Assembly: GCA_029262895.1 (NCBI GenBank)
Contig: JAJCYM010000062.1
Location: 1 to 64,000 of the forward strand
Reading direction: 5' to 3'
DNA length: 64,000 bases
Source: Roseivirga sp.
GTDB taxonomy: Bacteria > Bacteroidota > Bacteroidia > Cytophagales > Cyclobacteriaceae
Below the pieces are notes generated by a model that saw only the letters and a list, made by a program, of their open reading frames with translations, did not search any database and was not told the origin of the DNA. Within the stretch, counting starts at the first letter, position 1. The number at the start of each line of letters is the position of its first letter. Position numbers and translations under genes: made by a program. Positions 6,109 through 58,621 of this stretch are shown here, one piece after another.

Positions 6109-6783
6109 TTATTTTAGTCTGAATAAAATCTGAATAGACATTCTAGATTTTACTGCTCTTCCTCTTTGTCTACCTGGAGCCCATTTCGGTGATTTCTTAA
6201 GCACTCTTATGGCTTCTTCATCACATCCACCGCCAATTCCTCTAATCACCTGGATATCTGAAAGTACGCCTTGTTGGTCAACTACAAATGATAGGAAAAC
6301 TCTTCCTTCAATACCCATTCGGGTAGCTTGACGCGGATACTTAAGGTTTTTGTTAAGAAACTTTCCCCATTCTCCTTGTCCACCTGGAAAAGCTGCTGAT
6401 TCTTCCACAACCATAAAGATTGTCTCAGCTACTTCTTCTTCCGGTTCTTCTTCAAAAACAATCTCTTCTACCTCAGTTTCTTCTGTGATTTCCACATCAA
6501 GATCGATTTCGAGTTCCTCCTCGAGTTCTTCTTCATCAGGGATTTCAATAATTTGAGGTTGCTGAATTTTTGGTGGTGGTGGTGGTGGCTGCTCCGTAGG
6601 AGGAATTTCGGTTAATTCTTCGAAATCGTCATTGGCCATTCCCAAATCCATCAGTTCACCTTCGTCTGATTTTTTCCACTCAAAGGCTACAAGAGTGAGG
6701 CCTAAGCTTACCAGCAGTCCAATGGCAAGGAATAAAGATGCCTTCTTATTAAGATCTGCTTCCGGAGTCTTCTTAGCTTCCAT
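6109..6783 (-). CDS. TonB-like energy transducer, paralog 3 (acidic linker)
   Basis: 224 residues: MEAKKTPEADLNKKA, a transmembrane helix (about 17-35), a short PPTEQPPPPPP segment, then a highly acidic stretch (DEEELEEELEIDLDVEITEE) matching paralog 1. The TonB_C domain follows: AAFPGGQGEWGKFLNKN, VIRGIGGGCDEEAIRVL, SPKWAPGRQRGRAVKS. It starts 27 bases after the VanZ-like gene ends, so it is probably the first tonB in the operon that begins at ruvA/sprA/gcvH. The three copies share nearly identical first and last segments and differ mostly in the linker. Confidence 0.88.
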   Translation of the reverse strand: MEAKKTPEADLNKKASLFLAIGLLVSLGLTLVAFEWKKSDEGELMDLGMANDDFEELTEIPPTEQPPPPPPKIQQPQIIEIPDEEELEEELEIDLDVEITEETEVEEIVFEEEPEEEVAETIFMVVEESAAFPGGQGEWGKFLNKNLKYPRQATRMGIEGRVFLSFVVDQQGVLSDIQVIRGIGGGCDEEAIRVLKKSPKWAPGRQRGRAVKSRMSIQILFRLK

Positions 6784-40344: not shown

Positions 40345-42060
40345 CTAATTGCTCCTTCTGCCGGTTCCGGATTTCTTGACAGCACCGCTTCTTGATGAAC
40401 TACTTGAAGATCCAGACCTTTTAACCGAGCCGCTTCTGGATGAACTGCTTGAAGACCCTGATCTTTTAACCGAGCCACTTCTGGATGAACTACTTGAAGA
40501 CCCTGATCTTTTAACAGCCCCGCTTCTTGACGAACTACTTGAGGACCCTGATCTTTTAACAGCACCACTTCTGGATGAACTGCTTGAAGACCCAGACCTT
40601 TTAACAGTACCACTTCTTGACGAACCTGATGATCTTGAAGAGCTTGATGCATTTCTGCTGCTAGAAGAACTCCTTCTAAAATTTGAACTCGATCTGGAAC
40701 TTGGCGTGCTGCCAAACCTGTCTCTTGAACTGTTGCTTTTGCTAGTACTTGATCTGCTAAAAGTTGAAGTAGCCCCTGAGCTTCTGGTCTGGCCATTGTA
40801 GCCACTGTTACCATAACTTCTTGAACTGCTACTTGAACTACGTGTTCTTGTTGCTGACGATCGCCCTCTCACCGCGGTAGAAGATCGTACTGCGTTTCGA
40901 GAATTAACCCTATAGTCCTGGGTAGTAGTAGCCGATGAATTGGAAGTGACGGCAGACGATCTTGTCCTCATTACAGAGCTCCTCGTTCTACCTGCAGTCG
41001 CATCACTGGCAGAAGTGTTTGGCCCATTAGCGGCTATTCGACCTCGTGCAGTTGCTCTACCATTATTCAGGTTACTTGAACCACTGGCATCAGCACTGTT
41101 AAGGTAAGCTGTTGATCTTGTTCTGCCAGTAGCTCCATTAGAAGCATCATTTCTTACAGAAGCCACTGCGCTACTCGTGCCCCTTGGGCCTCTTTGCACA
41201 TTTGTGTTAGCATTGTTTGGTCCATCATTCTGGCTATATATTCTGTTGTACGAGTTACGGTAGCCGTTTCTATAATATCCCCAGTCATTGTAAAATGGAT
41301 CATATACAGAGTAGGCCGGAGGGCACCAGAATAAAGAGCCAAAAAACGAATTTGAGTAAACCCTTTGTCTATAGAAGGGATCATAGTAAGAATAGAAAGA
41401 CCGGGAATAATTAGTAGAGATGCCACGGCCAAAGCCGAAACCAAAACCAATACTAATTCTTGGACTGAACACTGAAAAGATCCCAAAATTGTTCCTTGTC
41501 CTGAAAGCTCTGTTATAGTTCCTTCGCCCAAAGTAATTGGTCAAACTGCCGTTATAACCCTGATAATAATAATCATACCAGGCTTGATTAAATCGGAAGT
41601 CTTGATTTACACGACTGTCGAACTCGAACCTTGACCAGTAACCTGTGCCCCAGTCAATAGGTAAGTCGTTATTTTGAACATAGCCATTTTCTAAATCCCA
41701 AAGAAAGTCATCATAACTTAGGTCGTTAGGGTTGCGGACCCTTCGTTCATCACGGGAATATACATCGGCCACTTTATCATTGCCATTGTTGTACTTATTT
41801 ACAATTGCCGGGTCTACATATTCAGGTGAATATTCCTCAACTGAATATGTGTTTTGTACTTCAGTAATTTTTTGATCAGATACCGGAATCAATCCTGATT
41901 CGGTCTTTTCTCTGATTACAGGAGCCTGCTTTCGATCGGCTGAAGTAAAATAAATGTCATCGTATTCTTGTGGTTGATTGTAGATGTTGGGTGAGCATGC
42001 TCCAAAAAGAAGTGCTGCGAGTGGTGCCAGTAAGAGTTTGGAATAGAAGTCCTTTTTCAT
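40345..42060 (-). CDS. Ser/Arg/Tyr-rich lipoprotein with C-terminal tandem repeats
   Basis: 571 residues. Lipoprotein signal [22 protein letters not shown]. Residues of about 100-270 are rich in Tyr, Asn, Phe and Arg ([18 protein letters not shown]); 270-480 is Ser/Thr/Arg low complexity; the final 85 residues are about 5.6 copies of the 15-residue unit [15 protein letters not shown]. The tail is very basic. No known function; an adhesive, surface-exposed or polyanion-binding role is plausible. The repeat is encoded by near-identical 45-bp units, so copy number may vary. Confidence 0.75.
40373..40626 (-). repeat. 45-bp tandem repeat, about 5.6 copies
   Basis: Near-perfect 45-base units, for example GATCTTTTAACCGAGCCACT at one end of each, lying entirely within the 3' end of the lipoprotein gene. 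They also keep long frames open on the other strand, which are not genes. Unit length is a multiple of three, so gain or loss of copies keeps the reading frame. Confidence 0.85.
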
Positions 42061-57401: not shown

Positions 57402-57475
57402 GGCCTCGTAGCATAACTGAATAGTGCACTTGATTACGGCTCAAGAGGTTACAGGTTTGAATCCTGTCGAGGTCA
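57402..57475 (+). tRNA. tRNA-Arg, anticodon ACG
   Basis: 74 nucleotides fold as a complete cloverleaf. Acceptor GGCCTCG pairs with CGAGGTC (one G-T); D arm GCAT...GTGC; anticodon stem CTTGA/TCAAG with loop TTACGGC, giving anticodon ACG (A34, read as inosine if TadA is present); T arm ACAGG/CCTGT with loop TTTGAAT; discriminator A. No CCA is encoded. A promoter lies upstream and an intrinsic terminator 10 bases downstream. Confidence 0.95.
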
Positions 57476-57485
57476 CTTAAAGCAG

Positions 57486-57515
57486 AAAAGCCTTGTCGAT
57501 TGACAAGGCTTTTTT
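57486..57515 (+). terminator. Intrinsic terminator of tRNA-Arg
   Basis: AAAAGCCTTGTC (57486-57497) and GACAAGGCTTTT (57502-57513) form a 12-bp stem around GATT, ending in a T run through 57515. It immediately abuts the large inverted repeat beginning at 57510. Confidence 0.85.
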
Positions 57516-57562
57516 CATGTCCAAAAACCAAAGCTCGCTTTAGGTTTTTGGACATGAAAAAA
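57510..57562. repeat. Large inverted repeat, 25-bp arms
   Basis: The arm 57510-57534 (TTTTTTCATGTCC, AAAAACC, AAAGC) is the reverse complement of GCTTT plus GGTTTTTGGACATGAAAAAA (57537-57541 and 57543-57562), with a two-base loop and one bulged A at 57542. The right arm is also the start of the 131/132-bp repeat, so the left arm is an inverted piece of that repeat placed directly after the tRNA terminator. Confidence 0.8.
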
Positions 57563-57937
57563 GCAGTGCGTAGCACAGGCTTTTCTATTTTCAGGAGTGA
57601 TGCATCAGGATCGCGGTAGCAATCCTGTGATACTTGTTTGTGAGGACACAAACAAGGGCTGAAGCTTGCTTTAGGTTTTTAGACATGAAAAAAGGCAGTA
57701 CGCAGCACAGGCTTTTCTATTTTCAGGAGTGATGAAACAGGATCGCGAGAGCAATCCTGTGATACTTGTTTGTGAGGACACAAACAAGGGCTGAAGCTCG
57801 CTTTAGGTTTTTGGACATGAAAAAAGGCAGTGCGTAGCACAGGCTTTTCTATTTTCAGGAGTGATGCATCAGGATCGCGGTAGCAATTCTGTGATACCTG
57901 TTTGTGAGGACACAAACAAGGGCCGAAGCTTGCTTTA
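57531..57937. repeat. Three tandem 131/132-bp repeats plus a 12-bp stub
   Basis: Units start at AAGCTCGC/AAGCTTGC: 57531, 57662 and 57794, with a partial fourth at 57926. They are about 95% alike. Each contains three internal hairpins: GTGC-gta-GCAC, CAGGAT...ATCCTG, and the perfect CTTGTTTGTG-AGGA-CACAAACAAG. The minus strand stays open over units 2 and 3 with a 44-residue repeating peptide, but this frame has no ribosome-binding site and breaks in unit 1, where one base is missing, so I read the array as non-coding. Confidence 0.85.
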
Positions 57938-58072: not shown

Positions 58073-58621
58073 TTAGGAGGCTAGCTTTTGAGACAGCTTC
58101 TTCTGCCTTTCTTTATAGTCCTTAAAAGTTTTGATTCCTATTAAGGAAACCCAAACCAAAGGAAAATATACCGTATAAATTACCTGATATGGACTTACTT
58201 TTAAGTAAGGATTATCAGAAATAAAATCTTCTGGTGTAACTCCAATCCAGGCTATTAAAGCAAGAGTAATACTAGCACCGAATGACAAGATTACCAGTAC
58301 CCTACCAAAACCAATAGATTGATTTACTTTAGCTTTATCTTGTCCTAATGCTATTATAAGCATTACTAGGATAAATACGACCGAGGAATAAGGTGAGGCT
58401 GGACTCCAGCCATAAGAGTACTGATAAAAATCAACGTAAGTGGTTCTGCTAAACAATTCAAGAAATATCCAAAAAGACCATATTAATAAAGATAATATTA
58501 ATGTCCATTTAAGATCAATGGGCATTTTCTGAATTCCGCTTTTAAGAATAGTCAGTGTTTTCAGAACCCCAGATTTGACGGTAGTAAATAAATTCTTGGT
58601 GTCTACTTTAGTATCTCTCAT
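58073..58621 (-). CDS. Membrane protein, unknown
   Basis: 182 residues. A basic N-terminal 35 residues (NLFTTVKSGVLKTLTILKSG) precedes four membrane helices (WTLILSLLIWSFWIFLELF, SSVVFILVMLIIALGQ, VLVILSFGASITLALIAWIG, VIYTVYFPLVWVSLIGI) and a short charged tail (KDYKERQKKLSQKLAS). No recognised family. Monocistronic. It lies just beyond the tandem repeat array, with its 3' end facing it. Confidence 0.65.
   Translation of the reverse strand: MRDTKVDTKNLFTTVKSGVLKTLTILKSGIQKMPIDLKWTLILSLLIWSFWIFLELFSRTTYVDFYQYSYGWSPASPYSSVVFILVMLIIALGQDKAKVNQSIGFGRVLVILSFGASITLALIAWIGVTPEDFISDNPYLKVSPYQVIYTVYFPLVWVSLIGIKTFKDYKERQKKLSQKLAS

Follow-up and report, generated by a model that had tools for sequence, protein, structure and literature searches.

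A probably mobile non-coding element repeated in tandem behind a tRNA-Arg gene of Roseivirga

Directly behind a tRNA-Arg(ACG) gene of Roseivirga sp. lies an inverted repeat, which is followed by tandem units of a folded sequence (Table 1). The locus is part of a stretch of 64,000 nucleotides of contig JAJCYM010000062.1, called the window below. It raises the question of what kind of element the array is, and how it came to be placed at the end of a tRNA gene. Comparison with loci from related and more distant bacteria indicates that the array is probably a tandemly amplified, non-coding mobile element of about 150-165 bp, which inserts into the T-arm of tRNA genes.

The tRNA-Arg locus and its folded structure

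The arms of the inverted repeat are 25 nt long and 96% complementary, and the tandem array (57531-57937) has a period of 132, 3.1 copies, and 92% matches (TRF score 723), with a start-to-start spacing of 131/132. The arrangement of three units and a stub agrees with the preliminary description, which had also recognized that the right arm of the inverted repeat is the start of the repeat unit, and that each unit holds a perfect 10-bp hairpin (D) and two smaller ones (B and C). All three hairpins recur in units 2 and 3 with a few substitutions. The only Rfam family at threshold in the window is tRNA.

Beyond what the preliminary description noted, an inverted-repeat search identified a stretch of the unit (57577-57594) that is complementary to the tRNA trailer (57476-57493), so the inverted copy extends back to the 3' end of the tRNA. 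The trailer, terminator, inverted repeat, and unit 1 fold as one four-way junction composed of P1, A, P2, and B. The parts of the element are ordered as the left strand of P1, terminator hairpin A, the long stem P2, hairpin B, the right strand of P1, and hairpin C (GGATC…AATCC), with hairpin D after C at the window locus. At the window locus P2 is formed by the 25-bp repeat; a tetraloop closes the stem, and a single A is bulged out. Folded as single-stranded DNA, the first 153 nt reach z = -10.1 on the plus and -10.7 on the minus strand, and none of 200 shuffled sequences folded as well. Hairpin A contains GC pairs and is followed by a T run, as in intrinsic terminators, which accounts for hairpin A only.

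Table 1. Parts of the tRNA-Arg locus of the window.
Feature	Position	Strand	Remarks
tRNA-Arg(ACG), host gene	57402..57476	+	T-loop AATCC 57460-57464, putative insertion junction by analogy with other loci
P1 left strand (tRNA discriminator and 3' trailer)	57473..57490	+	
Hairpin A, intrinsic terminator of the tRNA, then T run	57490..57509	+	
P2 left arm	57508..57532	+	
P2 right arm, start of unit 1	57540..57564	+	apex loop CTCG, one bulged A
Hairpin B, unit 1	57566..57576	+	GTA triloop
P1 right strand, unit 1	57580..57600	+	complementary to tRNA trailer
Hairpin C, unit 1	57606..57627	+	T-arm-like, C.A mismatch
Hairpin D, unit 1	57633..57656	+	perfect 10-bp stem; similar hairpins dispersed in own genome
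Unit 2	57662..57793	+	P2R 57674-57687, B 57698-57708, P1R 57712-57732, C 57738-57759, D 57765-57788
Unit 3	57794..57925	+	P2R 57806-57819, B 57830-57840, P1R 57844-57864, C 57870-57891, D 57897-57920
Stub of fourth unit (P2 apex)	57926..57937	+	

The same tRNA-Arg gene carries such an element, with differing letters, in 8 of the 19 genomes of the genus, and no such element was read behind the gene in the other 11. The structure alignment contains seven of the eight orthologues; one of the eight has a run of N. Compensatory changes in the stems, which the preliminary description had proposed to look for, are present. In the alignment 95.6% of the cells pair, and both partners have changed in 21 of the 51 pairs. 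These counts are favoured by the fact that the structure was derived from the aligned sequences themselves. When the partner column is shifted by 1-3 positions as a control, 2-9 such doubly changed pairs are left. In the shuffle control for conserved structure, 0 of 500 shuffles were as good on four of five measures and 126 of 500 on the fifth.

Elsewhere in the window, positions 40379-40625 hold a 45/90-bp tandem repeat, the consensus of which, read by eye, is a putative acidic protein repeat.

Occurrence behind tRNA genes of the genus and the phylum

A covariance model (R1) was built from the seven tRNA-Arg orthologues and run on the 19 genus genomes. Counted without the training loci, their array units, and reverse-strand palindrome matches, it identified 15 new loci at E <= 3e-5, and 13 of them start at the 3' end of a tRNA called by ARAGORN. 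Four genomes have the element at Val(TAC) and five, including the genome of the window (G000), at Ser(GCT); the other hosts are Val(GAC), Pro(TGG), Pro(GGG), and an Arg tRNA in G017. One of the other two loci (L100) follows a tRNA 3' fragment recognized by eye, and the second (L125) is near a contig end. The tRNA-Ser element of G005, held out of the model, was recovered at 2.4e-9. The element is not tied to tRNA-Arg, and its presence is patchy among related genomes. The preliminary description had named absence of the unit elsewhere as a refuting outcome. By sequence, the full unit indeed has only matches of at most 34 nt elsewhere in the own genome, and the second copy, behind tRNA-Ser, was found only by the structure model. 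Weaker R1 matches (E > 1e-3; L102-L107, L127-L140) were treated as chance. Of the 20 examined, 14 have no nearby tRNA; of the remaining six, five are at tRNA ends and look like ordinary terminators where read, and one has a distant tRNA.

The better short matches of the unit outside the array correspond to hairpin D and not to the element; they make up a dispersed family of their own and were rejected as copies of the unit. Some twenty places of the own genome (L004, L006-L021, L023, L024) have hairpins similar to GTTTGTGAGGACACAAAC, frequently with GAAGGCGGC behind them and another hairpin, GTTTGTGTCTTCACAAAC, in front. A tRNA lies on one of the 19 loci listed (L007). The three hairpins D of the array belong to this family or resemble it.

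Hairpin C of the window (GGATCGCGNNAGCAATCC) was rejected as a dispersed motif: it occurs in 6 of 295 genomes of the family, all of this genus, and a slightly looser form is present in 6 of the 19 genus genomes. GGATC…AATCC is found in 17 of the 21 genus elements listed, a count for which the pattern itself fixes GGAT and AATCC. The C and A are opposed as a mismatch, and the differences among inner stems preserve pairing (ACC/GGT, GC/GC, AGC/GCT, AAC/GTT). The exceptions are G015, which has GGATG, and three elements outside the pattern.

In most elements at tRNAs other than tRNA-Arg, hairpin C is GGATCACCGNAGGTAATCC or near it. The exact pattern was found in at least 117 stretches of named genomes. 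Among the 80 titles listed, 75 are from Bacteroidota, including Flavobacteriaceae, Chitinophagaceae, Bacteroidales, Cyclobacteriaceae, and Saprospiraceae; the others are two alphaproteobacterial titles, one of Chlorobiota, and two of 'uncultured bacterium'. The element family is widespread in the phylum Bacteroidota. The exact pattern is sparse, with 1 of 198 sampled phylum genomes, and undercounts because many members of the genus carry variants of C. Its one stretch in viral contigs lies on a 40-kb putative virus contig (L258, IMGVR_UViG_3300025298_000065), in which one element lies behind a tRNA-Ser-like 3' end recognized by eye, with no tRNA paired with it.

Among the matches listed from the 117 stretches, 83 of 119 strand groups of hairpin C have a tRNA on the same strand at most 330 nt upstream. 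For 14 of the 36 groups without one, the fetched stretch starts too close to tell, and several of the remaining groups show tRNA fragments by eye. The distance from the tRNA to C is 110-156 nt in 74 of the 83 loci; four loci have 82-84 nt, and the last five have either 53 or 228-316 nt. Serine tRNAs are the most frequent hosts (40/83), followed by those for Pro, Leu, Arg, Val, Cys, Lys, Gln, Tyr, Thr, and Phe. Tandem arrangements with two to six exact copies of C occur in 22 of the 83 loci, and 50 of the 54 spacings between copies are 73-180 (range 50-529). The coding reading of the unit, raised earlier from its length and the open minus-strand frame, finds no support in the unit lengths and was rejected: 15 of the 54 spacings are multiples of 3, about as expected by chance. 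The corresponding spacings in genus relatives are 103, 164, and 189, one of three being a multiple of 3.

Stem P1 holds across the phylum. It was assessed in the 74 of 83 elements with a tRNA-to-C distance of 100-170, by pairing the tRNA end, the trailer, and the bases after it with the right halves of their own and of other loci; the own pairing exceeds the 95th percentile of 585 swapped pairings in 66 of the 74. The P2 apex is recurrent and consists of a short stem, often with a CTTG loop (GCTTGC in 21 of the 57 tetraloops found). In the 40 elements listed, read by eye, a single additional A on the 3' strand of the apex and tandem G.A are frequent. Hairpin A has cGNRAg tetraloops in 16 of 31 cases. 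Among the 23 triloops of hairpin B found in 74 elements tried, 11 are cGNAg and none is the complement. GNA loops would suit the very stable mini-hairpins of DNA described in PMC4686876, but the counts are too thin to distinguish DNA from RNA.

Traces of insertion into tRNA ends

The bases directly behind hairpin C repeat the 3' end of the host tRNA, namely the 12-14 nt following the T-loop AATCC, in 21 of the 83 loci. The repeated end was scored at no more than 3 differences, and the control with tRNAs of other amino acids gave 1 in 1029. In L212, L223, L225, and L238 the hairpin behind the displaced tRNA end is terminator-like but unlike that of the element. In others (L158, L168, L170, L185, L253) the repeat also takes in the trailer and terminator, as a tandem copy would. 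A displaced tRNA end was not seen in 62 of the 83 loci or at the window locus, where none lies between the array units, so insertion at these places rests on analogy.

A single case allows an occupied site to be compared with an empty one. The element is present at tRNA-Val(TAC) in 4 of 18 genomes. In G005 the order is tRNA, element, hairpin C, CTCAGCGCCCAC, and terminator, with a direct repeat of about 17-18 bp; in G007, G000, and others, the tRNA is directly followed by a matching terminator. The comparison indicates insertion into the T-arm, with the tRNA end restored by the element. As read from the sequences of the compared loci, the inserted unit starts with a copy of the host tRNA 3' end, followed by the trailer and terminator, and the palindrome P1-A-P2-B-P1' is then followed by hairpin C and the displaced tRNA 3' end. 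Because the inserted unit brings its own tRNA end, the host tRNA stays intact.

Elements at different tRNAs of one genome provide a further comparison. Six same-genome pairs were listed, and four could be tested. In three genomes, the elements at Ser(GCT) and Ser(CGA) are identical in 143/154, 140/158, and 157/167 positions, and the 5' parts of these tRNAs in 45/65, 44/65, and 47/69. Two of the three pairs also share the array behind the element. The fourth pair (Pro/Leu) is identical in 106/145 positions. Near-identical elements on differing serine tRNAs require movement or gene conversion between tRNA ends, and gene conversion between 3' ends could be an alternative source of the copies at different tRNA-Ser genes. 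The compared loci place elements behind many different tRNAs in many Bacteroidota and show them shared between tRNA-Ser genes within genomes. The repeated tRNA ends, the one empty site, the copies at different tRNAs, and the tandem arrays lend strong support to a suggestion of the preliminary description, namely a non-autonomous element that moves or amplifies and makes use of the 3' flank of the tRNA.

Two observations concern other rearrangements at tRNA genes. In L168 the halves of a tRNA-Pro element (409-520 on the minus strand and to 1738 on the plus strand) are oppositely oriented and separated by about 1 kb, which looks like the result of an inversion that split the palindrome within P2. 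A further type of T-arm insertion was seen in L007 at about 1206 (G000:C74, tRNA-Val) and on the minus strand of L069 at about 1687 (G018, tRNA-Arg). It ends with GTGCGG[CT]ATG…GTACGA…AATCC directly before the displaced tRNA 3' end and contains GGTTCRAA-like T-arm sequence. In G018 it displaced the tRNA end together with the folded P1/P2 element.

Strand bias, proposed recombination and alternative explanations

A stem that folds from a single strand is expected to have an excess of G.U over A.C and of G.A over C.T mismatches on the folded strand. The tRNA acceptor stems of the same loci have a G.U to A.C ratio of 27:1. The ratio is 34 to 4 in hairpin A and 43 to 9 in P2 outside the U tract, and G.A to C.T is 119 to 7 in the whole of P2. 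The P2 values are gapped counts, used in place of a first ungapped count (G.U 79, A.C 47) with the same lean. The bias indicates that the tRNA-sense strand folds at P2. In P1 the two ratios are 24 to 26 and 18:14, counted in 70 of 74 elements. A stricter alignment gives 9:11 for the first, which differs from hairpin A (Fisher 4.5e-4) and from the acceptor stems (7e-5). P1 thus looks like an ordinary inverted repeat in double-stranded DNA, a misfit with selection for one-strand folding at P1.

Three features are suggestive of site-specific recombination in trans: the place of insertion, the likeness of hairpin C to a T-arm, and the direct repeat. The exchange would take place between hairpin C and the T-arm/3' end of the tRNA, and the recombinase would be supplied in trans. 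The tRNA-sense strand may be recognized in its folded form. P1 would then hold the ends of the element next to each other, and strand and direction could be marked by the bulged A in P2 and by the C.A mismatch in hairpin C. Tandem units may result from successive insertions or from slippage at the palindrome; since the units of the window lack a tRNA end, slippage or unequal exchange probably fits better there.

A search of 118 loci with an HMM made from the tyrosine recombinases of the own genome gave matches in two (L166, L219), neither of which is a convincing partner of the element; the match in L219 is probably incidental. In L166, from Arenibacter sp., a 5'-truncated tyrosine recombinase frame (6415-6646) starts at hairpin C, and a displaced tRNA-Arg-like 3' end lies behind C. 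The own genome contains two pairs of convergent tyrosine recombinase genes (G000:C45:68836-69873 and G000:C14:35605-36714).

G.T pairs are tolerated in DNA too, so the strand bias cannot separate RNA from single-stranded DNA. Read-through from the tRNA promoter might yield a tRNA-trailer RNA that acts in trans or in tRNA maturation, with tandem copies raising its dose and mobility being secondary. Such a structured RNA would account for the G.U and G.A bias of P2 on the plus strand, the similar bias of hairpin A and its frequent GNRA loops, the apex GCTTGC, which is a CUUG tetraloop in RNA, and the compensatory changes in the stems. However, P1, the defining stem, lacks the bias that the acceptor stems have, the terminator precedes P2, and presence among related genomes is patchy. 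The window contains no Rfam family except the tRNA, and when four related loci were searched at a lax setting, no family other than tRNA exceeded the gathering score. We consider this explanation unlikely; the repeated non-coding RNA proposed in the preliminary description finds its folding signature on the plus strand of P2 but not in P1.

It is much less probable that the palindrome is a bidirectional terminator bank, the sole role of which is to shield the tRNA from convergent transcription and the copies of which arose by local slippage. This would be in keeping with the terminator in hairpin A, with hairpin B, the A and T runs of which read as a minus-strand terminator, and with the convergent next ORF of the window (58073-58621, minus strand), but it leaves the conserved hairpin C, the repeated tRNA ends, and the copies at unrelated tRNAs unexplained. 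The least probable source considered, and a very improbable one, is the movement of REP/BIME-like palindromes by RAYT (Y1/HUH) transposases. According to PMC3733652, REPs and REPtrons are small, palindromic, and extragenic, and are presumably mobilized as single-stranded DNA by an enzyme acting in trans. The element is alike in size, palindromic form, and extragenic position, and its plus-strand hairpins have a bulge or mismatch. Y1_Tnp genes are present in 14 of 19 genus genomes, but they do not track the element: 8 of the 11 carriers have them, as do 6 of the 8 non-carriers. In contrast to REPs, the element is located at tRNA ends, its target is the tRNA T-arm where readable, and a stretch of the tRNA end is repeated at insertion. 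By eye, no GTAG or CGTC tag was noticed at hairpin C. The element is not classified as a REP because a linked Y1 gene is absent.

Tandem repeats directly behind a tRNA gene are reportedly also present at E. coli tyrT (rtT RNA), where about three of them contain tRNA 3' sequence. To our knowledge, the tyrT repeats come from enterics only and lack the P1-P2 cruciform and hairpin C that distinguish the element. In integrons, the folded strand of attC with its unpaired bases is the recombination substrate. The element resembles integron cassettes in its tandem arrays and in a folded strand with unpaired bases as its putative recombination substrate; cassettes differ in that they carry genes and target attI. 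The integrative and mobilizable elements NBU1 (tRNA-Leu) and NBU2 (tRNA-Ser) of Bacteroidota, according to PMC5704250, encode a tyrosine integrase and a relaxase; the integrases insert them at tRNA 3' ends, and one direct repeat restores the end. The element of the window type is similar in inserting at a tRNA 3' end and keeping the gene intact, and different in being about 150-165 bp long, non-coding, and palindromic with a T-arm-like hairpin at its end. It is not classified as an integrative and mobilizable element (IME) because the defining integrase is absent, although its mode of action resembles that of a gene-less integrative element. The PINSR of Prevotella (PMC4755523), considered here by description, is a 188-bp intergenic repeat with 177-184 copies. 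No description of such an element family was found in the open full-text literature, a scope that leaves out most subscription papers and preprints. The family of tiny, strongly folding, non-coding elements at tRNA ends is apparently undescribed.

A tentative extension of the mobile-element reading, which may well prove wrong, is that these sequences are a new, gene-less class of mobile DNA that moves as a folded tRNA-sense strand. The P1/P2 cruciform would join the ends, hairpin C would mimic the host T-arm, and a host or foreign recombinase would swap C with the T-arm; the elements would specialize by tRNA type and pile up in cassette-like arrays across the phylum. The 83 natural elements collected make the structural parts that are needed directly testable. 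If the mobile-element reading is right, tRNA genes in many lineages of Bacteroidota carry overlooked minimal integrative elements without genes, which would explain the recurrent tandem repeats at tRNA 3' ends, could provide attachment sites for genetic tools in these bacteria, and would illustrate how short a sequence can suffice for a mobile element.
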